A DNA stretch of 64,000 nt from Ferruginibacter paludis (GTDB lineage Bacteria; Bacteroidota; Bacteroidia; Chitinophagales; Chitinophagaceae): assembly GCF_030409685.1 (NCBI RefSeq), contig NZ_JAUFQJ010000008.1:248001-312000 (forward strand), given 5' to 3'. Both the position numbers and the translations under genes were made by a program. The first letter of the stretch is position 1; each line of letters starts with the position of its first letter. Positions 23,814 to 55,074 of this stretch are shown here, one piece after another. The notes beneath the pieces were generated by a model. It saw only the letters and a list, made by a program, of their open reading frames with translations, was not told the origin of the DNA and ran no database searches.

Positions 23814-26156
23814 ATGAAAAAATTACCCGGCTTGCTGCTATTCCTCTTTACCGCACTTTCAACACAGGCACAATACAAGGTGCGGTTTGTTTTAAAAGAA
23901 CAAACCGCCATTCACCACGACAGTATTTTTATAACCGGCACTTTCAGCAACTGGGATTCAACCGCCAATAAAGAATTCCTTTTATTGCCACTGGCAGCCA
24001 GCGAAAAATCAATCACATTGACTTTAAAAGCTGGTATCATCAAATATAAATTTCACAGGGGCAGTTGGCTGACTGTTGAAAAACAGGATAACGGCGACGA
24101 GGTGCCGGATCGTACCATCACTATAAATAAAAATACTACGCTTACAGACAGTGTGCTAAGATGGCGTGATCAGATGTTTGTTGATAAATGGTATGCACTT
24201 GCCAAAGAAAAGGAAGATACCGGCCGGATAAAAATATTAGCCTCGATTGCATACGCTTATGGATTTTATAACGAATATTTCAATGCTGATTCTGCCTTGA
24301 TGTATGCCCAGGAAGCACTTCAGTTACAGCAAAAAGTAATGGCTTCTTCAAACAACAAGTTATCGTACCGTTCAGACTATACAATCCAGTTGATCACGCT
24401 TCAGGAGGTAGTTGCTTCACTCATGCATTCTTTTGGAAATTATCCAAAAGCGCTGGAGTTAAGATTGGAAAATTTAAACCTGGCAGAAAAGGAAACTGAT
24501 AAATTTTTACTTGTAGGCACCACCCTGAGTATTTCCAATGATTATCTTGCGATGAAAGATTATCAGCATGTATTGAGTTATGGTAAATCGGCGGATTCAA
24601 TTCTAAGCAAATTAAACCCTGCTGACCCAAGGTTTCCATCAAGTAGATGGAATACAAATTTTAGCATTGTTACTGCCTTTTATAACCTGCAACTACCGGA
24701 TTCTGCTTTACCCTATGCAAATCAAATGAAAATGATAAAAGGGTTAGCTTTCCCAGAGGCATACCAGGCCTCAGCCAACAGATTACTTGCAGATTTGTAT
24801 GCAGCAAAAGGAGAAAACAACACTGCGCTCAACTTTTACAGACAGGCTATTCCGTATAGTGTTGATTACTGGATTGCCCCGGCTAATGTAGGTATGGCAA
24901 AGCTATTTCAAAAAGAAGGCCGCCTGGACTCAGCCCTGTTCTATGCGAGGAAGGCTTTAACTTTTTATCAAACTCAAAAAATAACTGTTCAGTCATGGGG
25001 CGAAAATTCTGATTATTTTATTGCAGAAATAAGCCCTCTCATTGCCGATCTATACAACGCAAACGGGCAGTTGGACAGTGCTTATAAGTACCTCCATCTT
25101 TCTGTATTACTAAAAGACAGCCTGTATAATTCGGGGAAAGTAAGACAATTTCAAACACTCTCTTTCAATGAATCGTCCCGCCGCCAGCAACTGGAACAGC
25201 AGCGTAAAGAAGCACAGGAGCAATACCAGACAAAAATAAAAATCTACGGGTTAATTACGGCAATGGCTGTATTTCTGCTCGTGGCCTTTGTTTTATTCAG
25301 AAATAACAAACAAAAACAAAAAGCCAATACCATCCTGCAATCTCAAAAACTGGAAATAGAAACCACGCTCGGAGAATTACGGAATACCCAAAAGCAATTG
25401 ATACAGTCTGAAAAGATGGCTTCGCTTGGCGAACTCACCGCAGGCATAGCGCATGAAATTCAAAACCCGTTAAATTTTGTAAACAATTTTTCAGAGGTAA
25501 ATAAAGAGTTGATTGCCGAAATGAAAGAAGCCATCAACAGCGGTAATTATGAAGAAGTAAAAACGATTGCCAGTGACATTGAACAGAATGAAGAAAAAAT
25601 AAATCATCATGGCAAACGGGCGGATGGCATTGTAAAGGGTATGCTGCAACACAGCCGCACAAGCAACGCAATAAAAGAACCTACAGATATCAATAAGCTG
25701 GCGGATGAATACATGCGCCTCTCCTACCACGGCCTTCGTGCAAAAGACAAGTCTTTCAATGCAATATTGAAAACGGATTTTGATGATACAATCGGCAACA
25801 TCAACATCATTCCGCCGGACATCGGCAGGGTAATCTTAAATTTAATCACCAATGCTTTTTACGCAGTAGATGAGAAAAAAAAATCAGGAATTGAAAACTA
25901 TGAACCGACTGTTTTGATAAGCACAAAAAAGAAAAATGATTATGTAGAGGTTGCTGTGAAAGACAACGGCAACGGTATCCCGCAAAAAATAGTAGACAAA
26001 ATCTTTCAGCCATTTTTTACAACAAAACCCACCGGACAAGGTACAGGATTAGGGCTGAGTTTAAGTTATGACATAATAAAAGCGCATGGTGGTGAGATAA
26101 AAGTACAAACCAAAGAAAACGAAGGCACTGTATTCACGATTAAATTACCAGTTTAG
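23814..26156 (+). CDS. Histidine kinase A: CBM-like cap, periplasmic TPRs, one TM, HisKA/HATPase
   Basis: A 780-residue membrane sensor kinase. Signal peptide 1-19. Residues about 21-110 look like a starch-binding/CBM20-48-type beta sandwich (SIFITGTFSNWDST, GIIKYKFHRGSW, EVPDRTITI), which no other kinase in the array has. TPR-like helices occupy about 135-450. One TM helix is at about 477-495, then a short coiled coil, the phospho-acceptor H547 in AHEIQNPLNF, N-box NLITNAFYAV (N680), G1 DNGNGIP (717-723) and FTTKPTGQGTGLGLSLSYDI. It should autophosphorylate in response to a periplasmic cue, possibly a glycan. No response regulator is adjacent, so its partner is unknown. Confidence 0.93.
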   Translation: MKKLPGLLLFLFTALSTQAQYKVRFVLKEQTAIHHDSIFITGTFSNWDSTANKEFLLLPLAASEKSITLTLKAGIIKYKFHRGSWLTVEKQDNGDEVPDRTITINKNTTLTDSVLRWRDQMFVDKWYALAKEKEDTGRIKILASIAYAYGFYNEYFNADSALMYAQEALQLQQKVMASSNNKLSYRSDYTIQLITLQEVVASLMHSFGNYPKALELRLENLNLAEKETDKFLLVGTTLSISNDYLAMKDYQHVLSYGKSADSILSKLNPADPRFPSSRWNTNFSIVTAFYNLQLPDSALPYANQMKMIKGLAFPEAYQASANRLLADLYAAKGENNTALNFYRQAIPYSVDYWIAPANVGMAKLFQKEGRLDSALFYARKALTFYQTQKITVQSWGENSDYFIAEISPLIADLYNANGQLDSAYKYLHLSVLLKDSLYNSGKVRQFQTLSFNESSRRQQLEQQRKEAQEQYQTKIKIYGLITAMAVFLLVAFVLFRNNKQKQKANTILQSQKLEIETTLGELRNTQKQLIQSEKMASLGELTAGIAHEIQNPLNFVNNFSEVNKELIAEMKEAINSGNYEEVKTIASDIEQNEEKINHHGKRADGIVKGMLQHSRTSNAIKEPTDINKLADEYMRLSYHGLRAKDKSFNAILKTDFDDTIGNINIIPPDIGRVILNLITNAFYAVDEKKKSGIENYEPTVLISTKKKNDYVEVAVKDNGNGIPQKIVDKIFQPFFTTKPTGQGTGLGLSLSYDIIKAHGGEIKVQTKENEGTVFTIKLPV

Positions 26157-26372
26157 CGCATGATGAAAAAACGCTTCTGTCGCAGTCTTTTTTTGCGTCA
26201 GTCAGTCTACAGAACAGTGTAAAGTTTGAACATTTGGGAGGCTGCAATACCACCCGGGCCAGAACAAGACGAGTCAGAACTCAAAAAATATAATTAACTT
26301 TCTCTACCCTTTATAAAGCCGGTGCAAAATACGCATCATCACTTCATTGTCATTTAATATAAAAACCAACAC

Positions 26373-26894
26373 ATGAAACCAGCTTTACGCAAGCCTGTAA
26401 TTACCATTGCTTTTATTACTTTACTTTTTGCAGCCTGTAGTAACAATAAACCAAACACAGCAAGCGATGAAATGCAGGTTGCGGCTATGCTCGACTCGTT
26501 TAATGTTGCCGCAGCAAAAGCTGACTACAATAAATACTTTAATTACTATACCAGCGACGCCATATTTACCGGTACCGATGCTACAGAGCGCTGGGATAAA
26601 AAATCTTTTATGGCCTGGGCCAAACCTATTTTTGATAAAGGTCACGCCTGGAATTTTACTGCACTGGAGCGTCATATTTATTTTGATAAAACCGGCAGCC
26701 TTGCCTGGTTTGATGAATTATTGAATACCCAAATGAAAATTTGTCGTGGCTCCGGCGTGCTCGTAAAACAGGGCAAAGATTGGAAAGTACAGCAGTACAT
26801 TTTATCTACCACCATTCCCAATGAGCAGTTAGATAGCATAGTAAAAATCAAAACGCCACTGGAAGATGCAATCATTAAAAAGCTGTCAAAATAA
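26373..26894 (+). CDS. NTF2-like lipoprotein
   Basis: A 173-residue protein with a lipoprotein signal (LLFAAC; Cys about residue 22). The mature part is an NTF2/SnoaL/DUF4440-like cone fold: VAAMLDSFNVAAAKADYNKYFNYYTSDAIFTGTDATERW, then KSFMAWAK, then LAWFDELL, then SGVLVKQGKDWKVQQYIL. The last block (G-V-L-V-K-x-G-x-D-W-K-V-x-x-Y) is the usual C-terminal signature. Such domains bind small hydrophobic ligands or act as simple enzymes. It stands alone between kinase A and the FIST gene, on the same strand. A ligand-binding role for the signalling locus is possible but not shown. Confidence 0.85.
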   Translation: MKPALRKPVITIAFITLLFAACSNNKPNTASDEMQVAAMLDSFNVAAAKADYNKYFNYYTSDAIFTGTDATERWDKKSFMAWAKPIFDKGHAWNFTALERHIYFDKTGSLAWFDELLNTQMKICRGSGVLVKQGKDWKVQQYILSTTIPNEQLDSIVKIKTPLEDAIIKKLSK

Positions 26895-27013
26895 TATGGA
26901 TGCTTGTTGTAATCGTTTAAAACTTAATCAAGGATAGCCGATAAGCATTCATTCCGCCACCTTTAGCCAAGTAGCATTAAAACAAAAATCACTCCTTCAA
27001 AATAAACATCCAG

Positions 27014-28153
27014 ATGCAGGCAAAATCAATTAAAGGAAAATCACCAGGCGAAATTCAGGCTGCTTTAGAACAAAGCATGGCCGATGGTTTTAAACCAACG
27101 CTGGCCATTGTCTTTCTGTCGATCACCCAGGATAGAAAGGCCATCACCCGGGTATTGGATAACGTAGGCCTGCAGGTTTTCGGCGTAACCAGCAACGGAG
27201 AATTTACTGATGAAACGCCTGAAAAGCAATCAACTGTTGTGCTGCTGATGGATATGAAGCGGTCAAATTTTCAGATACTGCATGCTGATTACAACACTAC
27301 GAATTTCAGGCAGGTGGCAGTTTCTCTCGCTTCGAAAACGCTGGAAAATATTTCCAACCCGGCTTTTTTAGTTGGGGGAAGTCATGCCAATACCGATGCA
27401 GAAGCTTTGCTAAAGGGCTTTGAAGAAGCCGTGGGGGCACATGTGGAGGTTTACGGCGGCATGGCCGGTGATGACATTACGTTTACAGAACAGTTTGTTT
27501 TCAGCAACGACTGGGAAAGCAATAAAGGGATGATTGTTCTGGCACTCGATGCTGATAATGTAACGATAAAAGGCAGGGCCACCTGTGGATGGAGGGCAGT
27601 CGGCACTTTAAAAACAGTCACAAAAAGTGAAGGCAATCATGTGTATACAGTGGATGATGTGCCGGTGCTTGACCTCACGGCAAGATATGGTGGCATAGAA
27701 AATGTTACGCCGGACAATCCGCAATTATTACTGGAGATAGCAGCCAATTTACCCATGCAATTACAACGGGAAAACGGAGATCCCGTAATGCGGCCCGGCT
27801 TGGTGATAGACTGGAATGACCATTCCTTCTATTGCAGCGGATCGGTACCGCAGGGATCAAAAGTGCGTTTTTCACTGCCGCCGGATTTTGATGTAATAGA
27901 AAAAGTAATTAGTGAAACAGCCAATATTAAAGCCACCGATATGCCGGAAGCGGATGCTGTAATTGTATTTAGTTGCGCAGGCCGCTTGCTGTCTTTCGGG
28001 CCACTCATTAATCAGGAGCTGGAAGGTATAAAAAATGTGTGGAATGCTCCAATGGCCGGTATGTTCAGCAATGCAGAACTGGCAAGGGCAACAGGCGGTA
28101 AACTGGAAATGCACAATGCTACCACCTGTGTTGTCGCCCTAAAAGAGAAATAA
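27014..28153 (+). CDS. FIST N/C domain sensory protein
   Basis: A 379-residue soluble protein with the two-part FIST architecture. FIST_N is at about residues 20-215 (LAIVFLSITQDRK, VFGVTSNGEFTDE, AFLVGGSHANTDAEALLKG, YGGMAGDDITFTEQFVF). FIST_C is at about 225-370 (YGGIENVTPDNPQLLLEIAANLP, ADAVIVFSCAGRLLSFGP, APMAGMFSNAELARATGG). FIST domains are thought to bind small ligands such as amino acids and are commonly encoded with histidine kinases or chemoreceptors. Here the gene ends 89 bp before the giant eight-module kinase, so I infer that it is that kinase's ligand-sensing partner. The ATG at 27014 gives a complete domain. Confidence 0.92.
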   Translation: MQAKSIKGKSPGEIQAALEQSMADGFKPTLAIVFLSITQDRKAITRVLDNVGLQVFGVTSNGEFTDETPEKQSTVVLLMDMKRSNFQILHADYNTTNFRQVAVSLASKTLENISNPAFLVGGSHANTDAEALLKGFEEAVGAHVEVYGGMAGDDITFTEQFVFSNDWESNKGMIVLALDADNVTIKGRATCGWRAVGTLKTVTKSEGNHVYTVDDVPVLDLTARYGGIENVTPDNPQLLLEIAANLPMQLQRENGDPVMRPGLVIDWNDHSFYCSGSVPQGSKVRFSLPPDFDVIEKVISETANIKATDMPEADAVIVFSCAGRLLSFGPLINQELEGIKNVWNAPMAGMFSNAELARATGGKLEMHNATTCVVALKEK

Positions 28154-28242
28154 AATTTTATGCACCCAACTGCAGTGCTGCTATTAAGCTTCGGTTGCGT
28201 CGCACACTTGTACTGAATAACATTGCTGAACAAAAACCTACA

Positions 28243-31200
28243 ATGAACCAGCATCTTCAACACATACTACAATTTATTGAGCAGAACAATAACATGACTG
28301 CGGAGGAAAAAAATGCGCTCCTGAAATCAATAAAAGATGCAGATAAGGAATTTGAAATAACTGCTTTTAAACTTGACCGAACGGAAAAAGTAAAAAAGAC
28401 GACAGCCATTCTTTTGGAAGAAACAATTGAAGAACTAGACCACAAGCAAAAGGCTGTGGAAGCACAAAACAGGGAATTGGAAATTGAAGCATCGCTGGAA
28501 AGAGTGCGGACAATTGCAATGGGAATGAGCGCGCCCGAAGACTTGTTAAATATCAGCCAGGCGAATTATAAAGAACTAACTAAACTGGGTTTTTCTGAAA
28601 TAAGAAATTCACTGATTGGCATCTTTCACGATGATAAAAATTATTTTACTGACTACGACTATTCTGATTTTTCGGGTGGCAGCATTACCAACATTCCATA
28701 CAATAAAAATTCAATTATTGATAAGTCGATACAACAAATGAAGAGTGCCACCGATGCATTTACAGAATTTATTGTAGAAGGAAAAGAACTGGAAGAATGG
28801 AAAGCATTCAGAAAACAAAATGGTGAATATGAAGATACCCGGCTGATAGATGCCAATGCACTGTACTATTATTTTTATTCAATCGAACAGGGAAATGTGG
28901 GCATATCCACTTTTAAAAAAATCAGTGAAGAACAGCTCAATATCCTTAAACGCTTCCGCAATGTATTTGACCTTGCTTATAAAAGATATACAGACATCAC
29001 CACTGCGGAGGCTCAGGCAAGGGAAGCGCAGATAGAAACCGGTTTGGAAAGAGTACGCTCCCGTAGCATGGCCATGCACAAAACTTCTGAATTACAGGAG
29101 GTCATCAACACAGTGCATAAAGAATTACTCAATTTGAATATTGCAATTAATGGAGGTTCGTTCATTGCTATAAATAATGATATTGAAACAACGCTCCGCT
29201 GCTGGGGCTCAGGCGGAACTGCCGACACATCAGAAGAAGTACATCTTCCGCTTTATGAAAAACCCTTTTGCAGCAATCTTATAAACGGCATAAAAAATGG
29301 CCCGGGATTTTTTACCGAAGAATATACACAGGAGGAAAAAAAAGATTTTTTCACTTTTTTATTTGAGCATGAGCCCTGGTCAAAGCTGGATGCTGAACAA
29401 AAAAAAGAAACCCTTTCAAGCCCGGGAGGATATACCCGGTCCTGTTGTGTATCGATGCATACCAGTATATTTATCATCAACCACTTTGGCGAACCATTTT
29501 CAGCGGCCGATGATGATATTCTTAAACGCTTCGGAAAAGTATTCGAACAAACCTATACCCGCTTTCTTGATCTGCAAAAAGCAGAAGCGCAGGCAAGAGA
29601 AAGTCAAATACAGCTTGCATTGGAAAGAGTTCGTGCAAGAACAATGGCAATGCAAAAAAGTGACGAGTTAGCACAAGTAGCATCATTGCTTTTTGCACAG
29701 GTAATAGCATTGGGTATTAATTGTTATAGCAGCGGGTTTACAGTTTGGGAAAACGAAAATAATGAATTGATATCGTGGATGTGCAATGCCGATGGCTCTG
29801 TTAACCCGCCTTTTAGAATGCCTGCGTTTGACATTGAGTGGCATAAACAGCAATTTCAATCCTGGAAAAATCAGGAAGAATATATCATTCATGATTTTAC
29901 AGGTAACGAAATGCAGGAGTTTTACCGCTATCTAAGATCTTTTCCATTATTAGACGAAGCGTTCAAAAAATCTGAGGCCGCAGGGGTGCAAACACCTGTA
30001 CGGCAGGTGCACAATGCATTTAATTTTTCTTATGGTAATTTGCTTTATATTACTTTACAGCCATCTCCTGAATCTTATACTATTTTCAAACGCTTTGCAA
30101 AAGTGTTTGAACAGACTTACACCCGCTTTCTTGATCTTCAAAGAGCCGAGGCACAGGCAAGAGAAGCACAGATCGAAGCATCACTAGAAAGAGTAAGGTC
30201 AAGAAGCATGGCCATGCATCAAAGTGCTGAACTGACAGATGTAGCGAATGTCTTATTTCAGCAGCTAAGAAATTTGGGCGGCAATTTGTGGGGCTGTGGT
30301 TTTGTATTATGCATGCCTGGTTCGGATGATGATGAAGTTTGGTTTGCCAATGAAAACGGCGTACTTCCCCCCATTGCTATTCCCCATACCAAGGATCCAA
30401 CGCATAAAAAAATGTACGAAGGCTGGAAAAACAAAATGGATTTATGTAAAAACACCCTCGAAGGCAAGGCATTGAATGATCATTATGACTATATGCTTTC
30501 AGTTCCGTCAGTTAAGACGTTTTTTGAAAACATACTTGCTTCTGGTCTTTCATTTCCAACAAGGCAAACATGGCATGCCGCATATTTCAAATATGGATAT
30601 GTGCTAACGATTACGTTGGAGGCATATACTGATGAACAGGTTTTTATAAGATTTGCCAAAGTATTCGAGCAGGCTTACACCCGCTTCCTCGACCTCCAAA
30701 AAGCAGAAGCACAAACCAGAGAAGCAGAGATAGAATTGGCATTGGAAAGAGTGCGGGCAAGAACAATGGCGATGCAACATAGCGATGAATTGCAGGCCGC
30801 TTCACTGCTGCTCTTCCGGCAAGTTGAGTCGTTGGGTTTACCCCCTCTTGCATGTGGTTTTAATATCTGGGACGATGACCGAAAAGCCGCAACCGCATGG
30901 ATGGGGTCCATCAGTGGTCTTCTGCCACCCTTTAAAACCGACAGTTCAAAAGATGTGTACCAGAAGATTTATGAAGCTGCGCAGACAGGAAAGCCTTTGT
31001 TTGTGATAGAGCAAAGTGGAAAGGAACTGGAAGTCCATTACCAGTATCTGGCTACAATCCCAACCTTCAGGGAAGTAATCATGGAAAACTGGCGGCGGGA
31101 TGGAGTTTCCATTCCAACTTTTCAGATCATTCATTGTGTTTATTTTACGCATGGATATCTTATGTTTATTTCATTTGAGCGGGTAGCTGCTTACTATGAA

Positions 31201-33840
31201 ATTTTCAAGCGCTTTGCAATAGTTTTTGAACAAACCTATACCCGTTTTCTTGATCTGCAAAAAGCGGAAGCACAGGCAAGGGAAGCTCAGGTAGAAGCAG
31301 CTATGGAAAAAATCAGGAGCCGTTCTTTGGCCATGCATAATTCTGATGAACTGAAAGAAGTAATTGCATTGATATTTGAAAAGCTGGATGAACTAGACGT
31401 ATTATTGGGCACAGTCGGCATCTGGCTTTTTGATAAAAACTCAATGAATTCATTCTTTTGGGTAGGTAATAAACTACAGGCGCCTACTAAAGTTAACCTA
31501 CCTTATAGCGAAGTATTGATGAGTGGTGAAAATAACTACAGTGACAGTTGGAAAGCCTGGCTATCGGGCACCAGCTATTTCAACAAGCAATATACCCTTG
31601 AGCAAAAAAATGAATACTTTGATTATGTATTTGCCAATAATGGCTTCGATGTAATTCCTGCTGATGTACGAAAAATAATAATACAGTCAAGTCAGCATTT
31701 GGCTTGTATGATAACAGAAAAAAATACTGCTTTATTCGTAGATAGCTGGAACACTTCTTCCTACAACGAGGACCAAATTGTTGTATTAAAACGGGCAGCC
31801 AAAGTGTTTGAACAAACATATACCCGTTTTCTTGACCTGCAAAAAGCAGAGGCTCAGGCAAGGGAGGCAACCATTGAAGCCGCATTGGAAAAGGTTCGAA
31901 GCAGTTCTATGGCGATGCATAAAAGCGATGAACTTCATTCCGTGATTAGGGTTGTTACCGAACAGTTTGCACAATTGGGATTTCACTTCGATACAGCAAA
32001 CTTTGTAACAAAATATACTGATGAAGGCTCTTATTGGTATATATCCACACCTGGCATCTCCACTCCTGCAGGAATGTATTGTTTAGCTACAGACATAGTC
32101 TTTTTCAAAAGGCTTTCACGAATTGTAAAGGCCGGTGAAGGATTTTACACGGAGGCATTGTCATTTCAGGAAAAAAACGAATTCTTTAGCTATGTTTTTG
32201 AAAAAACGTTACTAAAATATACTCCGGAAGACAGGAAGCAATATGTTTACAATTCAAAGGGCGCAGCGTTTTCCTTAGCGGTGTCTAAAAATGTAATTCT
32301 CTCCATTGCAAATTACCAGTTGGTGCCATACACGGTGGAAGAAAATTTAATTATCAAAAGGATCGCAAATGTTTTTGAGCAGTCTTACAGGCGTTTTCTT
32401 GATCTTCAAAAAGCAGAGGCACAGGCAAGGGAGGCACAGATTGAAACGGCACTTGAAAAAGTAAGGAGCCGCACGCTGGCCATGCAAAAAAGTGATGAAC
32501 TGGCCGAAACCGCTGCCGTATTGTTTCAGCAATTGATAGCGTTGGGTATTGCACCCAACCGCTTATACATCGCTATTGTAAAAGATGAAAATGGCGCATC
32601 AGAATTTTGGATAACCGATGAGGATGGTAAGAAAATAAGTACTGCGTTCGATGCTAACCTGAATGACAACCCCTCATTTGCCAGCATGTTTGAAGGATGG
32701 AAGCAGCAAAAAAAATCGTTGATAATAGACATGCAGGGCGAAGAATTACAAAATTATTTCCGCCATCTTACCTCGTTGGGTGTACCATTTAAAAATGGCC
32801 TTTCTCAAAAAAGAAGAGTACAGGATATTGCTTATTTCAGCAAAGGTTTTATTGGCATCGCATCACCGGATGACCAACCAAAAGAAACCTTGCAATTGCT
32901 GGAACGGTTTGCGGCTGTGTTCAATTTAACCTTCACCCGTTTCAACGATTTACAAATTGCAGAGGCACATGCCCTGCAGGCGGAGCAGGATTTAATAGCC
33001 ATCAAAGAAGCAAGACAAAAAGCAGAATCAGCATTAACAGAATTACAGGCCACACAAAAGCAGTTGATACAATCTGAAAAGATGGCAAGTCTCGGCGAAC
33101 TCACCGCGGGCATTGCACATGAAATTCAAAACCCGTTAAACTTTGTCAACAACTTTAGTGAAGTGAGTAAGGAATTACTCGAAGAGATGAAAGAAGCCAT
33201 GGATAAGGGCGACACAACAGAGGCAAAGGAAATCATGAATGATGTGATTCTGAATTTAGAAAAAATCAATCACCATGGCAAACGTGCTGATGGCATTGTA
33301 AAAGGTATGCTGCAACACAGCCGCAGCAGCAGCAGTCAAAGAGAACCCACCGATATCAATGCATTGGCAGATGAATATTTACGGTTGGCGTACCATGGTT
33401 TGCGTGCAAAAGACAAATCATTTAACGCCACATTAAAAACAAATTATGATGATGCAATTGGTAACATTAATATCGTTCCGCAGGATATTGGAAGAGTGAT
33501 ATTAAATTTAATTTCCAACGCATTCTACGCAGTAAATGAAAAGAATCAGTCGCTTGTTGCAAACCCTGCAGCGGTTAAATATGAACCCACCGTTTCAGTC
33601 AGTACAAAAAAAATAAATGATCAAATTGAAATCAGCGTGGCCGATAACGGAAACGGAATTCCTTCGCCGGTAAAAGACAAAATATTTCAGCCATTCTTTA
33701 CTACAAAACCAACCGGCCAGGGAACCGGTTTAGGTTTATCGTTGGTCTATGATATTGTAAAAGCACATGGTGGTGAACTAAGGGTAGAAACGAAAGAAAA
33801 TGAAGGTTCTGAATTTCTGGTTCAATTACCGGCAAACTAA
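28243..33840 (+). CDS. Histidine kinase B: giant cytoplasmic kinase with eight tandem GAF-like modules
   Basis: An 1865-residue protein, starting at the ATG at 28243 (MNQHLQHILQF); the frame extends 48 bp upstream but only from a TTG. There is no signal peptide or TM. After a short helical N-terminus come eight repeats of about 183-194 residues. Each opens with a signalling-helix segment (consensus EAQAREAQIEAALERVRSR, then SMAMHKSDEL) and continues into a GAF-like fold ending FAKVFEQTYTRFLDLQ. The LER/LEK residue triplets start at 28495, 29044, 29620, 30184, 30742, 31303, 31885 and 32452. The transmitter follows, with phospho-acceptor H1626 in AHEIQNPLNF, DNGNGIP, and FTTKPTGQGTGLGLSLVYDI. 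FIST lies upstream and kinase C begins 4 bp after the stop. Confidence 0.93.
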   Translation: MNQHLQHILQFIEQNNNMTAEEKNALLKSIKDADKEFEITAFKLDRTEKVKKTTAILLEETIEELDHKQKAVEAQNRELEIEASLERVRTIAMGMSAPEDLLNISQANYKELTKLGFSEIRNSLIGIFHDDKNYFTDYDYSDFSGGSITNIPYNKNSIIDKSIQQMKSATDAFTEFIVEGKELEEWKAFRKQNGEYEDTRLIDANALYYYFYSIEQGNVGISTFKKISEEQLNILKRFRNVFDLAYKRYTDITTAEAQAREAQIETGLERVRSRSMAMHKTSELQEVINTVHKELLNLNIAINGGSFIAINNDIETTLRCWGSGGTADTSEEVHLPLYEKPFCSNLINGIKNGPGFFTEEYTQEEKKDFFTFLFEHEPWSKLDAEQKKETLSSPGGYTRSCCVSMHTSIFIINHFGEPFSAADDDILKRFGKVFEQTYTRFLDLQKAEAQARESQIQLALERVRARTMAMQKSDELAQVASLLFAQVIALGINCYSSGFTVWENENNELISWMCNADGSVNPPFRMPAFDIEWHKQQFQSWKNQEEYIIHDFTGNEMQEFYRYLRSFPLLDEAFKKSEAAGVQTPVRQVHNAFNFSYGNLLYITLQPSPESYTIFKRFAKVFEQTYTRFLDLQRAEAQAREAQIEASLERVRSRSMAMHQSAELTDVANVLFQQLRNLGGNLWGCGFVLCMPGSDDDEVWFANENGVLPPIAIPHTKDPTHKKMYEGWKNKMDLCKNTLEGKALNDHYDYMLSVPSVKTFFENILASGLSFPTRQTWHAAYFKYGYVLTITLEAYTDEQVFIRFAKVFEQAYTRFLDLQKAEAQTREAEIELALERVRARTMAMQHSDELQAASLLLFRQVESLGLPPLACGFNIWDDDRKAATAWMGSISGLLPPFKTDSSKDVYQKIYEAAQTGKPLFVIEQSGKELEVHYQYLATIPTFREVIMENWRRDGVSIPTFQIIHCVYFTHGYLMFISFERVAAYYEIFKRFAIVFEQTYTRFLDLQKAEAQAREAQVEAAMEKIRSRSLAMHNSDELKEVIALIFEKLDELDVLLGTVGIWLFDKNSMNSFFWVGNKLQAPTKVNLPYSEVLMSGENNYSDSWKAWLSGTSYFNKQYTLEQKNEYFDYVFANNGFDVIPADVRKIIIQSSQHLACMITEKNTALFVDSWNTSSYNEDQIVVLKRAAKVFEQTYTRFLDLQKAEAQAREATIEAALEKVRSSSMAMHKSDELHSVIRVVTEQFAQLGFHFDTANFVTKYTDEGSYWYISTPGISTPAGMYCLATDIVFFKRLSRIVKAGEGFYTEALSFQEKNEFFSYVFEKTLLKYTPEDRKQYVYNSKGAAFSLAVSKNVILSIANYQLVPYTVEENLIIKRIANVFEQSYRRFLDLQKAEAQAREAQIETALEKVRSRTLAMQKSDELAETAAVLFQQLIALGIAPNRLYIAIVKDENGASEFWITDEDGKKISTAFDANLNDNPSFASMFEGWKQQKKSLIIDMQGEELQNYFRHLTSLGVPFKNGLSQKRRVQDIAYFSKGFIGIASPDDQPKETLQLLERFAAVFNLTFTRFNDLQIAEAHALQAEQDLIAIKEARQKAESALTELQATQKQLIQSEKMASLGELTAGIAHEIQNPLNFVNNFSEVSKELLEEMKEAMDKGDTTEAKEIMNDVILNLEKINHHGKRADGIVKGMLQHSRSSSSQREPTDINALADEYLRLAYHGLRAKDKSFNATLKTNYDDAIGNINIVPQDIGRVILNLISNAFYAVNEKNQSLVANPAAVKYEPTVSVSTKKINDQIEISVADNGNGIPSPVKDKIFQPFFTTKPTGQGTGLGLSLVYDIVKAHGGELRVETKENEGSEFLVQLPAN

Positions 33841-33844
33841 AAAC

Positions 33845-35842: not shown

Positions 35843-36026
35843 ATACAAATTGGTGAGCTATGCTAAGCATATATATGGCGCTTGCGTTACTTCGTCCACC
35901 TGTACGCTTAGCTCAATAATGAACAGAAAGCACAATCGAGAGACAACGAAAGATGATTAAGACACTCATGCTGGTAACAAAATAAATCTCGTTATACTAT
36001 TATTAAAGCAATGGGAGTTAGACAAT

Positions 36027-44673: not shown

Positions 44674-44903
44674 ATCCCCGGTATATTAAAAAATTACAAT
44701 AAAATGTAGTATGTTTATTGCACCTTTTAGCATCTCCACTATCTATATTTAAAACGCCTCTTTGCCGGCAAGATTAATCGTTACAACGGTTTTCCAAAAA
44801 TACTGATGGCAAAATATTGGCCAGGAATACTGCAGCAAAAGCCAGTCGCCCGTTGCATTGTTTTTTACTTATTTTTCATAAGCAATCAATAAAACCATTC
44901 ATC

Positions 44904-45407
44904 ATGTATAAACAACACCTGCTAAACGCCATCGTGAAAGAAATGAAAATATGCAAAAGGCTTTATACAAAAATTCCGAACGATAAAATGGATTTTAAAA
45001 CAAAGGAAGAACTGAGGAGTATACACGAGTTGCTGCAATATTTATGCATCATCGGAACGGCGCCGTTAGACTATTGGATGAATAAAAGTGAACTGCCTTT
45101 CAATACTTATTTTGGTGAAGTAACGGTGGCTTCTAAAAAACTGCCGCACGAACAATTTCTTTCATTGATGGATGAACAGATTGACATCATCAATAAATTA
45201 TTTACCCAGTTTACGGAAGATGATTTGTTTCATAAAGAAATTGTGTACCCCTGGGGCGAAAAGGGACCGTTGGGAGAAGGCATTATTTCCACCTGCATTA
45301 AATTTATGGCAGCCTACAAGCTGCAGTTATTTTTACACATAAAATTGTGCAGTGATCAAAAATTGGGAACAGCTGATGCCTGGCTGTTAACTGATTTATC
45401 TTCCTAA
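44904..45407 (+). CDS. DinB-like helical protein
   Basis: The ATG at 44904 (MYKQHLLNAIVKEMKICKRL) starts a compact 167-residue helical protein; the longer frame above it has a basic, non-conserved leader. The sequence has the layout of a DinB/DUF1569-type four-helix bundle: IHELLQYLCIIGTAPLDYW, FLSLMDEQIDIINKLFTQF, and GEGIISTCIKFMAAYKLQLFLHIKLC near the end. The Asp/His that replace metal ligands in DinB proteins are only partly evident. Such proteins are often thiol- or metal-dependent hydrolases or transferases. It begins 230 bp after kinase G and ends 20 bp before kinase H, so it may share the H-I transcript. Function unknown. Confidence 0.75.
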   Translation: MYKQHLLNAIVKEMKICKRLYTKIPNDKMDFKTKEELRSIHELLQYLCIIGTAPLDYWMNKSELPFNTYFGEVTVASKKLPHEQFLSLMDEQIDIINKLFTQFTEDDLFHKEIVYPWGEKGPLGEGIISTCIKFMAAYKLQLFLHIKLCSDQKLGTADAWLLTDLSS

Positions 45408-45427
45408 CACTGAACTGATCTACCTAT

Positions 45428-47494: not shown

Positions 47495-49647
47495 TTATCT
47501 TTTCAATTTACAGAATCAAAAAAGTATGGGTAGCATGTATACTGCCATGTCTTTTGCTTTCTGGTTTTGTGTGCAGCGCCCAGAACTTTGAAGATAAAGG
47601 ATATTGGTTAGCAGCTAACAACCGCTATAATGATTTACCGGTAGATTCACTCTGGTTATTTCATCCGGGAAATAGTTTGCCGGCAACAGATTCAAATAAC
47701 ACTGGCTGGCAATTGGTAAATACGGAGTTATTGCTGGACAGTACAAACAAGCGACTGGAAAAGCTTGGTAATGGCTGGTATGCAAAAAAAATTACTGTTC
47801 CTGACCAATTAAGAGGTAAACCAGTGGCGCTCCGCATGTGGCAATTCGGAGCATCCGAAATTTTTATGGATGGCAAATTAATTAAGCGGTATGGGATGGT
47901 TGGCAGTGAGATGAAAAATGAAAAAATTTACGTACCCCGCACACCGGTTATAATTGATTTGGATAACCAGTTTTATCATCAGCTGTTGGTGCATTATTCA
48001 AACTTTCATGCAGGCAACCCAGGTTACGCTAATCAGCACCCGGGTTTTCGATTATTGATTTCGCCTCCCTGGGTTGAGCCGGCATCTGTTTTGGCAAACA
48101 CTTCGTCTTTACCGGTATCAATCGGTATCATTTTTATATTTTGCCTCTACTTTTTTTTCGTCTGGATCTTTTATCCAAAGCGATTGGCCAGCCTGATTAC
48201 CATGCTATTATTGCTGGATTTTTGTGTGGTATTAACCTCTGTGTATTATTTGCTCAGCGAAAACGAATGGGCGCCGTTGGTAAGAGCAAGTAATACCGGG
48301 GCAATAACATCAGCATGGCTTAATTTCTTTGTGTTGCTTATTTTGTATGCTTTATACTACCAGGGGAAGATGCCCAGGCGCACATGGCTTGTAATTGCAG
48401 GTATGCTTGTATGTGTGGCGGGGGTAATATTTACTCATTTTTCTTTTTTATCAGTCATAGCCACATTACTGTGCTACGTTGAAATTGTCAGGATGTTTAT
48501 GCTCGGGTTTAAAAATAAAGCTACCGGTTTTGGGCTTTTACTCACTGGTTTTCTCATACAGCAGGCTGGCTTTTTCCTCATAGTTCTCGACGTGTTTCAC
48601 TGGTTTCCCGTTTACACTCCGGAGGTGCTTCTTATACAACTCATTTTTCCACAATTAGGGATTCCGTTGACCTACGCACTTCACCTTGCATGGGAATTCA
48701 GATCAGCAAATCGTGATTTGCGCTTAAAACTAATACAGGTAAACCAGCTCTCGCAAAAAAGCCTGGAACAGGAGCAGGAAAAACAGCAAATTCTTGCCGC
48801 CCAAAACGAGACACTCGAAAAACAGGTTGGAGAAAGAACGGCAGCCTTAAGCCAATCACTATCAGAACTTAAATCCACTCAGTCACAACTTATACAATCA
48901 GAAAAGATGGCCTCACTCGGGGAGTTAACGGCCGGCATAGCACACGAAATTCAGAACCCATTGAACTTTGTCAATAATTTTAGTGAAGTAAATAAAGAAA
49001 TGATTGATGAATTACAAACTGAATTAAAGTCCGGCAATGTTGACGAAGCAATAAATATCTCAAATGATATCAAAGCAAATGAAGAAAAAATAAACCATCA
49101 TGGTAAACGTGCCGACGCCATTGTAAAAGGAATGCTGCAACATTCAAGGCAAACAACAGGTACAAAAGAACCAACAGATATCAATGCATTGTGCGATGAA
49201 TATTTACGTTTATCCTACCACGGTCTTCGTGCAAAAGACAAATCTTTTAATACAACAATGAGCACAGCATTTGATGAAGGTATCGGAAAAATAAATATCA
49301 TCCCGCAGGATATTGGAAGGGTATTATTAAATTTATTTAACAATGCTTTTTATGCGGTTACAGAAAAAAAGCTGGTAGCTGATGAAAGTTATCATCCTTC
49401 TGTTCTGGTGCAAACAAAAAAAGCAAATGGGGGCTTTACTATATCCATTAGTGACAACGGTAACGGCATTCCGAAAAACATTATAGACAAAATATTTCAA
49501 CCCTTTTTCACCACCAAACCTACAGGCCAGGGAACGGGTTTAGGCTTATCATTGGCCTACGATATTGTAAAGGCACACGGCGGAGAATTGAAGGTGGAGA
49601 CGACGGAAGGTAACGGAAGTAAGTTTATCATTCAATTACCAAATTAA
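47491..49647 (+). CDS. Histidine kinase I: 7TM-DISM-like receptor kinase
   Basis: A 718-residue kinase. A signal peptide (about 1-31) precedes an extracytoplasmic beta-sandwich domain (about 32-205) with galactose-binding-like features (GNGWYAKKITVPDQLRGKPVAL-type strands, FGASEIFMDGKLI). Seven hydrophobic helices follow at about 208-410 (e.g. GIIFIFCLYFFFVWIFY, LITMLLLLDFCVVLTSVYYLL, LLTGFLIQQAGFFLIVL). This is the 7TMR-DISM layout, which links a carbohydrate-type sensor to a cytoplasmic effector. A coiled coil with QVGERTAALSQSL leads to H485 in AHEIQNPLNF, DNGNGIP and FTTKPTGQGTGLGLSLAYDI. Its ATG overlaps the stop of kinase H. Confidence 0.92.
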   Translation: MIIFSIYRIKKVWVACILPCLLLSGFVCSAQNFEDKGYWLAANNRYNDLPVDSLWLFHPGNSLPATDSNNTGWQLVNTELLLDSTNKRLEKLGNGWYAKKITVPDQLRGKPVALRMWQFGASEIFMDGKLIKRYGMVGSEMKNEKIYVPRTPVIIDLDNQFYHQLLVHYSNFHAGNPGYANQHPGFRLLISPPWVEPASVLANTSSLPVSIGIIFIFCLYFFFVWIFYPKRLASLITMLLLLDFCVVLTSVYYLLSENEWAPLVRASNTGAITSAWLNFFVLLILYALYYQGKMPRRTWLVIAGMLVCVAGVIFTHFSFLSVIATLLCYVEIVRMFMLGFKNKATGFGLLLTGFLIQQAGFFLIVLDVFHWFPVYTPEVLLIQLIFPQLGIPLTYALHLAWEFRSANRDLRLKLIQVNQLSQKSLEQEQEKQQILAAQNETLEKQVGERTAALSQSLSELKSTQSQLIQSEKMASLGELTAGIAHEIQNPLNFVNNFSEVNKEMIDELQTELKSGNVDEAINISNDIKANEEKINHHGKRADAIVKGMLQHSRQTTGTKEPTDINALCDEYLRLSYHGLRAKDKSFNTTMSTAFDEGIGKINIIPQDIGRVLLNLFNNAFYAVTEKKLVADESYHPSVLVQTKKANGGFTISISDNGNGIPKNIIDKIFQPFFTTKPTGQGTGLGLSLAYDIVKAHGGELKVETTEGNGSKFIIQLPN

Positions 49648-51229: not shown

Positions 51230-51233
51230 ATGG

Positions 51234-52109: not shown

Positions 52110-52130
52110 ACGTGCATGTTAATAGTACTG

Positions 52131-53396
52131 TTACCTGTAAACAATAGCAGAGATGGCATACGCAACCACAGCTGCAATAAGGCCGTACATAAAAATGGTG
52201 TACGAAATCCGCAATAAGCGATATTTGCGGCCCAGCACTTTTCCTTGCCAGAAAATGTCCTTTGTAAGACTGCCGTATAAAAATTCGCTGTCACCCATCA
52301 TTGCCTTGATACCTTCGTTGTACTCCCTGAAATTCATCTTGTAAAAGCTGCCGAAATACAACAGGTTGACCGATTTCTTTTCTACCTGCTCTTTGGTAAA
52401 TTCGCCATCTCCAATATGTGGGCGGGTGGCCAGTACAGAATAAATAATAGTAGTTACACTCACCGCCAGCAAAATAAACGAGGGTATCAGCACATGCGGA
52501 TTTTCATCCGGATTTTTTAAAACCAATCCCAGTAAAACAGAAAGAATAATAGAGTTTACCGTAATCATTATATGGGCCTTATTATCCGCCATTACACTTA
52601 TCCGCACATTATTGGCCGCTGATATCCTGAACATGGTTTCAATCCCTTTTACAGGCTTGTCTTTTTCTTTTATTTTATTTTTCTTTCCAGGGATGCCGCT
52701 ATCGGCGGCACTACCAGCCTCGTTCAATGGTTCTGCAGCCGCCCGTTGCAGTTCCAGTAATTTTTCCTGTTGTTTACTTTTTAACCAGGCGAGGTTTTGC
52801 GCCTTGGTTTCATTGAGTAACTCCTGGCAATAAGTTGTATGGTATCGGTGATTTTCAAGCAAGCTGACGGACGACGCCCGCCAGGCAATCCCGTCTATTT
52901 TTGTGTTTGTTCTTGCTTCTGTTTCCTTTTTCAGTTGTTTGTTTTTTTCTTTAAACTCAGCAGTGCCAAGGTTAAACAAATCGGCATCGCAAATAATCTG
53001 TTCTTCCAGTGTCTGTGGCTGCTGCGGCATTTTTGTTGCCAGTATGCACCTTTTTATGGCCGCGATATCGGCCTGTTCTACGCCGGCTTGCTGAAAAAAT
53101 TCATCCGCCAGGGTGGCACTTTTATCTTCATGCAATAAGTCACCTGGCACCAGTATGCCGGAATCATGAAAACAAGCCGCGGCACAAACAATAAAGAACA
53201 ACTGATCGTTCAGCTGGTAATGTGCGGCAATTTTCTTCGCATTGTCCAGCACTTCCATAGCATGCTGATAGTTGTGATAGTACAAGTTTTTTGCAGCATT
53301 CAGCCTGTACAATTCACTGATATAATTTTCCGCCTTGTTTAAAATTTCACCGTACTGCATGTTGTGTAAAATATCAGGGATGGTTGATTGCCGCAT
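52131..53396 (-). CDS. HD phosphohydrolase fused to a Pycsar-effector-like (PycTM) membrane domain
   Basis: A 421-residue protein. Residues about 15-200 are an HD-domain phosphohydrolase: H41/H45 in YYHNYQHAMEVL, the HD pair H77-D78 in ACFHDSGIL, and D137/D139 in IICDADLFNLG. A charged linker (about 205-250) leads to a membrane part with three TM helices (about 277-293, 301-323, 399-421), preceded by ISVMADNKAHIMITVNSIILSVLL, the hallmark of the PycTM/DUF5706 family. HD domains often hydrolyse cyclic nucleotides or nucleotide alarmones. PycTM proteins are the membrane-damaging effectors of Pycsar defence. This fused form is widespread in Bacteroidota and may be a housekeeping signalling protein. 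It faces away from the kinase J/cyclase operon. Confidence 0.82.
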   Translation of the reverse strand: MRQSTIPDILHNMQYGEILNKAENYISELYRLNAAKNLYYHNYQHAMEVLDNAKKIAAHYQLNDQLFFIVCAAACFHDSGILVPGDLLHEDKSATLADEFFQQAGVEQADIAAIKRCILATKMPQQPQTLEEQIICDADLFNLGTAEFKEKNKQLKKETEARTNTKIDGIAWRASSVSLLENHRYHTTYCQELLNETKAQNLAWLKSKQQEKLLELQRAAAEPLNEAGSAADSGIPGKKNKIKEKDKPVKGIETMFRISAANNVRISVMADNKAHIMITVNSIILSVLLGLVLKNPDENPHVLIPSFILLAVSVTTIIYSVLATRPHIGDGEFTKEQVEKKSVNLLYFGSFYKMNFREYNEGIKAMMGDSEFLYGSLTKDIFWQGKVLGRKYRLLRISYTIFMYGLIAAVVAYAISAIVYR

Positions 53397-53694
53397 TTCA
53401 AATCCTCATATTCCGGTATAAATATATTAATATCGTGTGATTAAAATCAATTAAAAACCAAAGAGCCTGTTTACTTTAACGAGTTTGTATAACGAGGTAA
53501 ACAAAATGACAGGGCTGATAGAATCCAGGCAGAGACGCTTAATATATAAACAAAGCCTTTACGTTTTAGTTGTTTGGCTGATAAGCTTTTTGCATAAGCA
53601 AAAGGTGCTTTATTTTCTTTAATTTAGTTGAACAAATGGCAGTTACGGTTATCACCTTTTTTTCCCGTGATACATTTAACACAATAAGACACCA

Positions 53695-55074
53695 ATGGAT
53701 TTACAGATTTTTATTGCATTTTTTATCATCCTGCGGCTGCGCAAAAAATTTAAGACAAAAACAGCCTTCCCCCAATGGGAAAAAATACTGCTTGGGCTTA
53801 TGTTTGTGTGCATTGCGTTATTTACGGTGCAGGCTTCATTTAATTTTTTAAAGCCGCTTTCCGGCTGGATTGCAAATGGCGTAGTGGCCGTTGTTTTGGG
53901 GATCATTTATTTAAATGATGAATTTAGTTCCGAGCGGCCTACGATGTTTGCAGTACTGCCGTTGATTTTAGTAAGTTTTGTAGAAGACGTTTTTAAATTG
54001 ATCAGCATTTCATTTTACAATAAGATTCATTATTTTTTTGAAGCCGCCAGTTTTTTTGCTTTTATCTGGATGATAGCCTTGTTAATCATCAATAACAAAC
54101 AAAGAAAGGCACTTATAAAAGAGCAATCAAAAACGCACGAAGAAGAGCAAAAGAATAAATTCATGGCTTCCATGAAAGCCCAACTGGAAATACAAGTGGC
54201 AGAACGCACAGCAGAACTGACCAGTCAAAAAGAAACGCTGGAAGAGGCATTGACTGAATTAAAGACCACCCAGGCGCAGCTGATTCAATCAGAAAAACTG
54301 GCATCGCTGGGCGAACTAACAGCCGGCATAGCTCACGAAATTCAAAACCCGTTAAACTTCATTAATAATTTTTCGGAAGTAAACACTGAACTAATTGAAG
54401 AAATGAAGGAGGCGATCGCCAAAGGAGATTCGGAAGAAGTACTTGCCATTGCAGCCGACATTGCGGCAAATGAGCAAAAAATAAATCATCATGGCAAAAG
54501 GGCGGATTCAATTGTGAAAGGCATGCTGCAGCACAGCCGCAACAGCAATGGTATTAAAGAACCAACCGATATCAACAAACTGGCAGATGAATATTTAAGA
54601 CTGGCCTACCATGGTTTGCGGGCAAAAGACAAATCGTTCAACGCCGCAATGAAAACAGATTTTGACCGCTACATCCCCCCTATCAACGTAATTCCACAGG
54701 ATATTGGCCGCGTAATTTTAAACTTAATTACCAATGCGTTCTACGCGGCCTCACAACCTTCCGCATTACCTGACGATACAGTTGCAGCAAACCATAAAAC
54801 CCCGACAGTTTGGGTTACTACGGCGCTGATACCGCCAACGGAAGATGAAGGAACCCTTGTTTCCCTTACGGTGAGAGATAACGGGCCCGGCATTCCGGCA
54901 AATATTATGGATAAGATATTTCAACCGTTTTTTACCACCAAACCCACGGGCCAGGGCACCGGGCTTGGTTTAAGCATGAGTTATGATATCATTACCAAGG
55001 GTCATGGCGGCCAATTGACCGTTCATACATCAGAAGGAACAGGAACAGAATTCACTATATTATTACCAGCATAA
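53695..55074 (+). CDS. Histidine kinase J: 4TM sensor, HisKA/HATPase
   Basis: A 459-residue kinase. Four hydrophobic segments lie at about 29-49, 58-74, 82-103 and 113-132, with almost no loop between, so the sensor is a membrane-embedded module. A coiled coil (EQSKTHEEEQKNKF, QVAERTAELTSQ) leads to H214 in AHEIQNPLNF, then INVIPQDIGRVILNLITNAFYAA, DNGPGIP and FTTKPTGQGTGLGLSMSYDI. It is the only kinase of the array with regulators next to it: the receiver gene starts 18 bp after its stop and the receiver-cyclase follows. That makes it the most likely direct donor for both. It is the best-defined two-component pair in the window. Confidence 0.93.
   Translation: MDLQIFIAFFIILRLRKKFKTKTAFPQWEKILLGLMFVCIALFTVQASFNFLKPLSGWIANGVVAVVLGIIYLNDEFSSERPTMFAVLPLILVSFVEDVFKLISISFYNKIHYFFEAASFFAFIWMIALLIINNKQRKALIKEQSKTHEEEQKNKFMASMKAQLEIQVAERTAELTSQKETLEEALTELKTTQAQLIQSEKLASLGELTAGIAHEIQNPLNFINNFSEVNTELIEEMKEAIAKGDSEEVLAIAADIAANEQKINHHGKRADSIVKGMLQHSRNSNGIKEPTDINKLADEYLRLAYHGLRAKDKSFNAAMKTDFDRYIPPINVIPQDIGRVILNLITNAFYAASQPSALPDDTVAANHKTPTVWVTTALIPPTEDEGTLVSLTVRDNGPGIPANIMDKIFQPFFTTKPTGQGTGLGLSMSYDIITKGHGGQLTVHTSEGTGTEFTILLPA

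Follow-up and report, generated by a model that had tools for sequence, protein, structure and literature searches.

Sensors exchanged on a common transmitter in a Ferruginibacter paludis histidine kinase array upstream of a predicted receiver-adenylate cyclase

In a 64,000-nucleotide stretch of the Ferruginibacter paludis genome (the window; contig NZ_JAUFQJ010000008.1), a same-strand array of histidine kinases joins different sensors to one class of transmitter. When the array is compared with that of the closest relative (G016), the exchange of sensors on this common transmitter is directly visible. The locus is, in our judgment, quite likely a many-input, one-cyclase device, in which sensor cassettes are swapped by homologous recombination within the constant transmitter.

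The open reading frames, HATPase_c matches above the curated cut-off in all ten proteins (Pfam) and the stops in the remnant bear out the ten plus-strand kinases and one remnant originally described at 23,814–55,074; unless stated, the features below are also on the plus strand. HK1 (23,814–26,156; transmitter 25,368–26,153) is separated from HK2 (28,195–33,840; transmitter 33,034–33,837) by a SnoaL-like accessory gene (26,373–26,894; Pfam SnoaL_3) and a FIST-domain gene (27,014–28,153; Pfam FIST/FIST_C). HK3 (33,800–35,842; transmitter 35,000–35,839), HK4 (36,080–38,071; transmitter 37,274–38,068), HK5 (38,091–40,076) and HK6 (40,087–41,982) follow, and then a decayed transmitter of the same class as nine of the kinases (42,046–42,318; 63.8 bits to the class profile) with three in-frame stops, one TGA and two TAA. 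Between HK7 (42,433–44,673) and HK8 (45,428–47,494) lies a DUF1706-like gene (44,817–45,407; Pfam) that is 97% identical in G016. HK9 (47,491–49,647) is followed by three genes that encode no kinase, two of them on the minus strand; one of the three encodes an HD + PycTM protein (52,131–53,396, minus strand; Pfam). HK10 (53,695–55,074), the core kinase, ends 18 nt before a stand-alone CheY-like receiver (55,093–55,467), which overlaps by 1 nt the start of a receiver-class III cyclase gene (55,467–56,507; Pfam Response_reg and Guanylate_cyc). In G004, G020 and G029, too, FIST genes lie immediately 5′ of HK2-like kinases, with a SnoaL-like gene adjoining the pair in G020, and the FIST-domain protein is likely an accessory input to HK2. 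The HD + PycTM gene adjoins an HK10-type kinase in G016 and G029, and its product is a possible cyclic-nucleotide accessory.

Nine of the kinases (all but HK6) carry a HisKA-type transmitter with common H-box, N-box, G1 and FTTKPTGQGTGLGL blocks, the single class that the original prediction had recognized. All nine match HisKA (E 3.9e-4 to 2.2e-6; Pfam), seven of them under the curated cut-off, and class membership leans on the conserved blocks too. HK6, the odd member, is not of the orthodox HisKA type and has a HisKA_2 transmitter instead (E 4.8e-26; Pfam). "Near-identical", as the transmitters had been called, is too strong, the eight other class members being 71–76% identical to HK1. A profile of the nine, searched against a genome with 115 HATPase_c matches, gave ten matches of 473–519 bits, followed by 77 bits; as supposed, the class is closer to itself than to dispersed kinases. 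Nine of these ten are array kinases and one lies at 103,580 of contig C7. Array and class thus coincide in nine members, with the C7 kinase outside the array and HK6 inside it but of another class. Among the matches listed for seven proteins scanned, no NCBIfam model reached its cut-off. The recognition residues on the two DHp helices are nearly the same, as an alignment of transmitters showed: in 229 of 230 transmitters that were parsed, helix-1 positions His+0, +4, +5, +7, +8, +11 and +12 reach 100%, eleven positions of helix 2 reach 99–100%, and the other helix-2 positions are variable.

The sensors do differ, and hydropathy, Pfam and the HK2 fold agree broadly with the classes first assigned to them. 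TPRs were detected by Pfam in HK1, HK3, HK5, HK6, HK7 and HK8, and no Pfam sensor family in HK4, HK9 or HK10; the HK4 sensor looks TPR-like by eye, and for HK1's CBM-like cap and the 7TM-DISM-like part of the multi-TM HK9 sensor the assignment was likewise by eye only. According to hydropathy, HK1 and HK3–HK7 have a single hydrophobic segment a short way ahead of the transmitter, with an additional N-terminal segment in HK3 and HK5; HK8 has none, HK9 a signal-like segment plus six, and HK10 four. HK2 has one weak segment, within a module. Its GAF-like modules comprise seven repeats found by pattern and one earlier copy found by eye. Sequence searches of Pfam and the PDB with the module were uninformative and folding was needed; in the predicted structure, by fold comparison, the module is a GAF fold. 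Modules 2, 3, 4 and 7 are 93–98% identical to G016, and modules 1, 5 and 6 have no counterpart there above 39%; on this sequence comparison, GAF-fold modules are gained or lost whole between the two genomes.

A partner shared by the kinases had been postulated without being named, the lone receiver and the receiver-cyclase 3′ of HK10 having been missed. A profile of this receiver class matched two proteins of the genome, at 217 and 208 bits, the next match being at 77 bits; the receiver pair thus stands as far apart in the genome as the transmitter class does. The receiver-cyclase is one of three class III cyclases in the genome. Across 11 orthologues its residues D57, D176 and D220 do not vary; we take these to be the phospho-Asp of the receiver and both metal Asp of the cyclase to which it is fused. 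K216 and T287, presumably the ATP-selecting residues, are also invariant in the orthologues, and aligned solved adenylate cyclases, e.g., CyaB and a photoactivated cyclase, have the same K/T pair. The protein is thus predicted to be an adenylate cyclase, with cAMP as its putative product. The receiver/cyclase pair is probably the common partner and output of the kinases.

The kinase-receiver-receiver/cyclase order was found again across Bacteroidota and in Bradyrhizobium, with arrays of variable size. Of 59 related genomes, 14 have the receiver-cyclase (contig ends cut three of these), and the transmitter class is present in every one of the 14. A lone receiver lies directly 5′ of the cyclase at 72 of 80 loci from named genomes, and a class kinase upstream of it at 63 of the 68 loci with at least 3 kb of upstream sequence (57 within 600 nt). 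Of 129 kinases, 128 are encoded on the same strand as the cyclase. The place of HK10 is held by kinases with a related sensor in G018, G004, G008 and G037. The gene order of the array is kept in G016, with three places changed, and nowhere else among the mapped relatives; in the others, it is the position of the kinases upstream of the receiver and receiver-cyclase that is conserved. The receiver pair was not found in five of eight genomes checked. Class kinases are present and the receiver-cyclase was not found in G015, G028, G020 and G025; two of these genomes are rated 100% complete, and in all four the kinases lie on a short contig or where a contig ends. G029 has a cyclase fragment only. 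The second receiver of G042 and of G055 is part of a hybrid kinase instead of a cyclase fusion.

G016, the one close relative found with an intact array, has flanks 92–97% identical in DNA to those of F. paludis. HK1 (transmitter 96%, sensor 93%), HK3 (96% and 98%) and HK10 (100% and 100%) have counterparts there, as has HK6 (89%). HK4 is 90% identical in the sensor and 75% in the transmitter, nucleotide identity dropping from 90.0% to 67.0% at about 37,403 (His+15; lnLR 75.6); HK8 is 95% and 81% identical, with a drop from 95.7% to 68.5% at about 46,976 (His+66; lnLR 121.9). At the HK5 and HK7 positions, G016 has unrelated sensors, and identity resumes at about 39,830–39,880, in the 3′ part of the transmitter, and at about 44,470–44,510, again inside the transmitter. 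HK9 is missing from the G016 array, with identity back at about 49,453, within the HK9 transmitter. Transmitter DNA holds five of the six breakpoints (P 0.0056, transmitters making up 26% of the array excluding the HK2 sensor). Seven reciprocal-best non-array kinases, analyzed as controls, were no mosaics (transmitter 92–99%, sensor 96–100%), and in HK1, HK3 and the C7 kinase, which served as further controls, identity shifts by at most 7 points along the gene. Small steps in HK1 (lnLR 22.6) and HK3 (lnLR 12.9) were counted against the interpretation. The comparison directly supports the proposed sensor exchange on a common transmitter.

Other genomes provide further signals of recombination. 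HK4 and a G018 kinase are 82% identical in the sensor and 71% in the transmitter, with a breakpoint at His+19; 71% is the median transmitter identity of the other 29 pairs between these genomes. Paralogues with unrelated or distant sensors have a common tract of 89–98% identity over 150 codons in G021, and such tracts occur in G004 and G015 too. In a PHI test of F. paludis and G016 transmitters, none of 1000 shuffles reached the observed value; the signal was weak for the F. paludis array alone (24/1000) and not significant for its third positions (143/1000). Among sensor-matched pairs outside G000–G016 (filters: 45% identity, 60% coverage), the transmitter was not less conserved than the sensor in 121 of 129; the mean rank of 0.63 indicates that some sensor-transmitter linkage remains. 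The contrast between arrays and single kinases was not significant overall (P 0.088). At sensor identities of 65–85%, the difference between transmitter and sensor was −0.2 in 10 array pairs versus +12.6 in 17 single pairs, which is suggestive; seven of the 11 single-kinase genomes are Bradyrhizobium. G008 and G078, with equal cyclase scores, were considered as a second close pair and set aside because G078 showed one class kinase only. Programmed shuffling, as in shufflons or hsdS inversion, depends on a site-specific recombinase and inverted target repeats; no recombinase was found by Pfam among 17 locus proteins scanned, and the kinases are all on one strand.

As to the origin of the array, the original prediction named tandem duplication; as a recent event in the F. 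paludis lineage, this was rejected. None of the ten F. paludis transmitters has its nearest transmitter in the same genome (G016 left out) and they are never mutual nearest; across 24 tabulated genomes, 29 of 108 transmitters do have their nearest one in their own genome. A tree of 70 transmitters, from which rows with <225 profile positions were dropped, has a star-like shape without resolved branches, and a one-clade origin of the F. paludis and G016 arrays was not rejected (p-AU 0.32; 65 sequences, five long-branched rows left out); tandem duplication in a single lineage is neither shown nor excluded. Concerted evolution as a general rule was rejected too: for 21 of the 24 tabulated genomes, transmitters of one array are on average no more alike than they are to those of the best other genome, so that homogenization is local rather than global. 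Taken as a whole, the original interpretation is partly supported.

Old tandem duplications, followed by ordinary divergence under strong transmitter constraint, might give such an array with no cassette exchange. The transmitter is highly constrained, with many invariant columns, and is about 70–75% identical between most array-bearing genomes; the AU result leaves room for such a history. Constraint, however, cannot give transmitters of 75% and 81% beside sensors of 90–95% in the closest relative, and accounts neither for the abrupt breakpoints nor for the removal of HK9 between two transmitters, and we regard this history as very improbable. Least probable of all is a misjoining of similar transmitters in either assembly. 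Contigs of several relatives end within transmitters, so repeats do disturb assemblies, and both genomes are draft assemblies, one of 34 contigs and one of about 100. Yet among the paralogues compared the longest exact match is 41 bases in F. paludis and 53 in G016, HK8 and HK9 match exactly over only 18 bases, and there is no N in the stretches compared. Moreover, the replaced 3′ part of G016 HK4 is, for most of its length, about 68–74% identical to any window kinase, which excludes a source there.

It is unlikely that the kinases are insulated, each with a different regulator, and that the receiver/cyclase pair serves HK10 alone. Indeed, only HK10 adjoins the receivers, HK9 being 4 kb from HK10, and one class kinase is encoded elsewhere, on C7; but the genome holds no other receiver near the class, all nine kinases agree at the recognition positions, and in G070 eight class kinases in a row lead straight into the receivers. 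Import of cassettes from other strains by homologous recombination, the array being a docking place for acquired sensors, has a little less than an even chance. It differs from our preferred explanation only in the source of DNA, and both may act. For the sensors at the HK5, HK7 and HK9 positions, the class set of the other genome offers no close relative, nor, with the above identity and coverage filters, do the relatives compared, and similar transmitters carry unrelated sensors in different genomes (88.5% transmitter identity in G002/G028). Against import alone, the common tracts of paralogues in G021, G004 and G015 point to internal exchange as well, and the replaced cassettes could not be traced to a donor.

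In the explanation that we prefer, the nine kinases, with their different sensors and one transmitter class, would phosphorylate the receiver pair 3′ of HK10, so that many cues would set the level of one second messenger, probably cAMP. Transmitter-coding DNA would double as the crossover site for homologous recombination with other array members or incoming DNA. The cassette swapped, added or deleted would consist of the 3′ transmitter part of one gene, the spacer, and the sensor with the 5′ transmitter part of the next gene. A crossover inside the transmitter would leave the recombinant with the same partner specificity and a new sensor. HK2 modules, with a common linker between them, may be gained and lost whole in a similar manner. 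Homologous recombination is our inference as to the molecular mechanism, and so would be any advantage under selection.

Several known systems resemble parts of this locus. In CyaC-type cyanobacterial cyclases, a kinase, a receiver and a class III cyclase form one fused polypeptide, and phosphorylation is thought to activate the cyclase; we take structures 1wc0 and 1wc1, labelled adenylate cyclase, to belong to this family. The three functions likewise form one pathway here, but with separate multi-copy kinases, a lone receiver and a receiver-cyclase. ComP and AgrC carry a variable sensor on a constant transmitter, tied to recombination. The array shares this arrangement; ComP and AgrC, however, are peptide-tied allelic variants at one locus, and the array consists of side-by-side paralogues with unrelated sensors. 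The kin genes of Bacillus subtilis are dispersed. KinA–KinE and Spo0F integrate signals many-to-one, with several kinases of different sensors and one receiver protein (PMC12471899). Here, unlike there, the array lies on one strand beside its receivers, has a cyclase output and swaps sensors by recombination, as we propose. For polymorphic quorum-sensing kinases, compare PMC4008528. Related kinases of the Pseudomonas GacS multikinase network feed one regulator, and engineered domain transplants work given common domain ancestry (PMC8175716); those are hybrid kinases and laboratory chimeras, whereas the array holds natural chimeras. Domain shuffling in two-component evolution was regarded as rare, apparent cases being explained as loss then gain, and synteny gave no evidence of recombination between homologous two-component genes, in one study (PMC4603909); new input on an old transmitter is common to such shuffling and the array, but breakpoints are readable here. 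Titles and abstract openings, with few subscription journals covered, yielded no such kinase arrays or transmitter breakpoints.

How a kinase comes by a new sensor is commonly deduced from comparisons over large distances; in this array the exchange shows readable breakpoints. Their location in the partner-choosing domain would explain how a new input is acquired without rewiring. The natural sensor-transmitter junctions lie at His+15 to about His+180, not in the linker before the transmitter, and form a testable set usable for building sensors. Tentatively, Bacteroidota strains might trade pooled sensor cassettes through the transmitter, their cAMP inputs being renewed much faster than the remaining genome. 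If so, the locus would have a fixed kinase-receiver-cyclase core with swappable inputs to one cAMP signal. The array also suggests that cAMP may, in many Bacteroidota, be an integrator of strain-specific inputs.

The source genome comprises 6.92 Mb in 34 contigs, and the window is C34:248,001-312,000. ORF analysis confirmed the original prediction of ten histidine kinase genes (HK1-HK10), all on the plus strand, at 23,814-55,074. The predicted common transmitter was recovered as one HisKA-type class (DHp plus HATPase_c) in nine of them, but HK6 is of the HisKA_2 (Pfam) type; this HisKA_2 kinase amid a HisKA array (40087-41982, plus strand) is kept at 89% in the closest relative found, genome G016. 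The gap between HK6 and HK7 holds a broken transmitter. Parts of the array have operon-like spacing: HK2/HK3 and HK8/HK9 overlap by 41 and 4 nt, and the HK4-HK5 and HK5-HK6 gaps are 19 and 10 nt. A lone CheY-like receiver (55,093-55,467) lies 18 nt downstream of HK10, and its end overlaps by 1 nt the start of a receiver-class III cyclase fusion (receiver-cyclase, 55,467-56,507).

Array transmitters are closer to each other than to dispersed kinases of the genome, as had been proposed: with a nine-transmitter profile, ten genes score 473-519 bits and no other place exceeds 77, although HATPase_c matches number 115 genome-wide. The receiver pair stands apart in the same way; a profile of ten receivers of both kinds (lone and cyclase-fused) gave 217 and 208 bits for the pair and 77 for the next of 89 matches. 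We take positions 7, 8, 11 and 12 residues past the phospho-histidine (His+7, +8, +11, +12) in helix 1 to be receiver-contacting, from work on other kinases. The expectation of equal recognition residues in both helices held for helix 1, where these four are identical in all nine, but not entirely for helix 2, which differs at some positions. The four are invariant (100%) in the 229 transmitters parsed of 230. Helix 2 is conserved too, with its third and eleventh positions highly variable; HK3, HK5 and C7, a class member outside the array, each deviate at one or two positions. The conserved positions are what one common partner would need, phosphotransfer itself being a prediction.

Comparison with G016 revealed sensor exchange. 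Identity rounds to 100% for the cyclase and the HK10 sensor, and the flanks match at 96.7% over 9.9 kb downstream and 92.0% over 2.1 kb upstream. For HK1, HK2, HK3 and HK10, orthology covers both sensor and transmitter, except for the GAF-fold modules of HK2. HK4 has retained its sensor (90% of amino acids shared) but carries another transmitter (75%), with base identity dropping from 90.0 to 67.0% at His+15 (log-likelihood ratio for the breakpoint, lnLR, 75.6); for HK8 the values are 95% and 81%, and the drop, from 95.7 to 68.5%, falls at His+66 (lnLR 121.9). The G016 array lacks HK9, and identity returns at the HK9 transmitter 3' end (88-99% from His+180); the G016 gene thus joins the HK8 sensor, a middle part and the HK9 end. 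The places of HK5 and HK7 hold unrelated sensors (31% and 24%), identity being regained in the 3' part of the transmitter. Five of six breakpoints, a count that omits module changes within HK2, fall in transmitters; with the HK2 sensor set aside, transmitters account for 26% of the array (P 0.0056, a guide only, since breakpoints were located on the same data before being counted); the sixth is the HK6 end, adjoining the remnant.

Misassembly could also yield mosaic genes. It is an unlikely source here, since exact stretches between paralogues are short: the longest among those compared is 41 bases in F. paludis and 53 in G016 (HK8 versus HK9, 18). Nine control kinases were parsed from 15 F. 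paludis loci, two without a counterpart among the fetched loci; the seven reciprocal-best non-array kinases gave transmitter/sensor identities to G016 of 99/99, 97/98, 98/100, 99/99, 99/99, 92/96 and 97/96%. Along-gene identity is near-even in HK3 and C7, and climbs from 92 to 99% in HK1. In PHI tests on transmitter codons, shuffles reaching the observed value numbered 24 of 1000 for the F. paludis array and 0 for the G016 array, both combined, and genome G015; with third positions, 143 for F. paludis and 0 for both combined.

Signs of exchange extend beyond this pair of genomes. Between HK4 and its G018 counterpart, sensors share 82% and transmitters only 71%, equal to the median for the remaining 29 transmitter pairs of both genomes (breakpoint His+19, lnLR 30.0). 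Within single genomes, kinases whose sensors are distant or unrelated have tracts in common: 150 codons at 89-98% (G021), 60 at 93-96% (G004) and 90 at 97-99% (G015). Across genomes, two kinases, one in G002 whose sensor is HK1-like and one in G028 whose sensor is unrelated to it, match at 88.5% in the transmitter. In 66 sensor-matched pairs from multi-kinase genomes, excluding F. paludis-G016, matched transmitters beat 63% of other pairs on average, on a scale where full linkage gives about 100% and none 50%. However, in only 8 of all 129 sensor-matched pairs was transmitter similarity below that of the sensor. A comparison of array with single-kinase loci also pointed towards exchange in the 65-85% band, but not significantly overall (P 0.088). 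Class kinases also occur outside the array, at L093:4234-6372 (C7; 99% the same in G016, contig C84) and L091:4660-6702 (G016, contig C38); the latter has no close sensor match among the F. paludis class kinases.

The class is present in 20 of 59 related genomes, F. paludis included, and the receiver-cyclase (at least 66% identity) in 14, all with the class; contig ends truncate it in three (G005, G023, G029). Six further genomes have a one-domain-only match. Of the six other class-bearing genomes, G042 and G055, two more distant members of the order, have the receiver pair with its second receiver fused to a hybrid kinase instead of a cyclase (L108:4807-6447, L118:9347-11377), an output swapped on the same core. 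G015, G028 (both rated 100% complete), G020 and G025 (65-67%) have the class and no such receivers, their kinases lying on short contigs or at contig ends. The cyclase occurs in 29 of 93 same-genus genomes searched; among named genomes, relatives at 83-84% come from a Ferruginibacter sp. and two Chitinophagaceae. Among the best 80 of 554 named-genome loci (a few, e.g. L155, L162, L167, repeat genomes already used), the lone receiver lies directly 5' of the cyclase in 72; 63 of the 68 whose upstream sequence spans 3 kb or more have a class kinase there (57 within 600 nt), and 128 of 129 kinases share the cyclase's strand. Within at most 10 kb upstream, these loci hold no class kinase in 5 cases, one in 32, two in 14, three in 11, four in 3 and five in 3. 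The order is also preserved in Bradyrhizobium loci, where a single kinase lies upstream. The largest rows observed besides the window's have eight class kinases leading into receivers (G070) and ten on one contig (G090). Contigs of array-bearing drafts often stop inside transmitters (G015, G002, G028, G008; L109-L114, L105-L107, L096, L123), which probably makes public drafts understate array size.

Beside HK10, a minus-strand gene (52131-53396) encodes an HD domain protein with a C-terminal PycTM (Pycsar effector-type membrane) part, whose role in the array pathway could be that of an effector or a cyclic-nucleotide phosphodiesterase; relatives (32-61%, some in the HD part only) lie near class kinases in G018, G006, G020, G021, G029 and G030. 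HK2, the kinase with GAF modules, has SnoaL-like and FIST genes in front of it (26373-28153, plus strand). In G004, G020 and G029, too, a FIST gene is the immediate upstream neighbour of an HK2-like kinase, which suggests a conserved accessory sensor; the FIST gene bears a weak likeness to the nitric-oxide sensor NosP (27.8 bits). Between two array kinases of G006, L101:3640-9222 encodes a 1,860-aa protein that combines a SnoaL domain with GAF-like modules and is not matched by the transmitter profile. In G002, an array kinase has as its neighbour a protein (L106:237-2849) with two domains, one a class III cyclase (57 bits) and the other sulfatase-modifying-factor-like (Pfam FGE-sulfatase).

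Domain shuffling is a textbook idea. Many-to-one kinases are already known (PMC12471899). A myxobacterial two-component study describes domain shuffling as rare and reports no evidence of recombination between two-component genes (PMC4603909), whereas here breakpoints are placed in transmitters. Going by titles and the openings of abstracts, our literature search found no description of such a kinase array with sensor exchange.

The locus probably works as many sensors feeding common receivers and, through them, cAMP. Each sensor would govern its own transmitter; all class transmitters would phosphorylate the lone receiver, the receiver-cyclase or both; and the receiver-cyclase, whose substrate positions are K and T as in aligned solved adenylate cyclases, would make cAMP. 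The lone receiver may be a phosphate sink or relay. Since recombination falls within the common part, each product would retain its partner.
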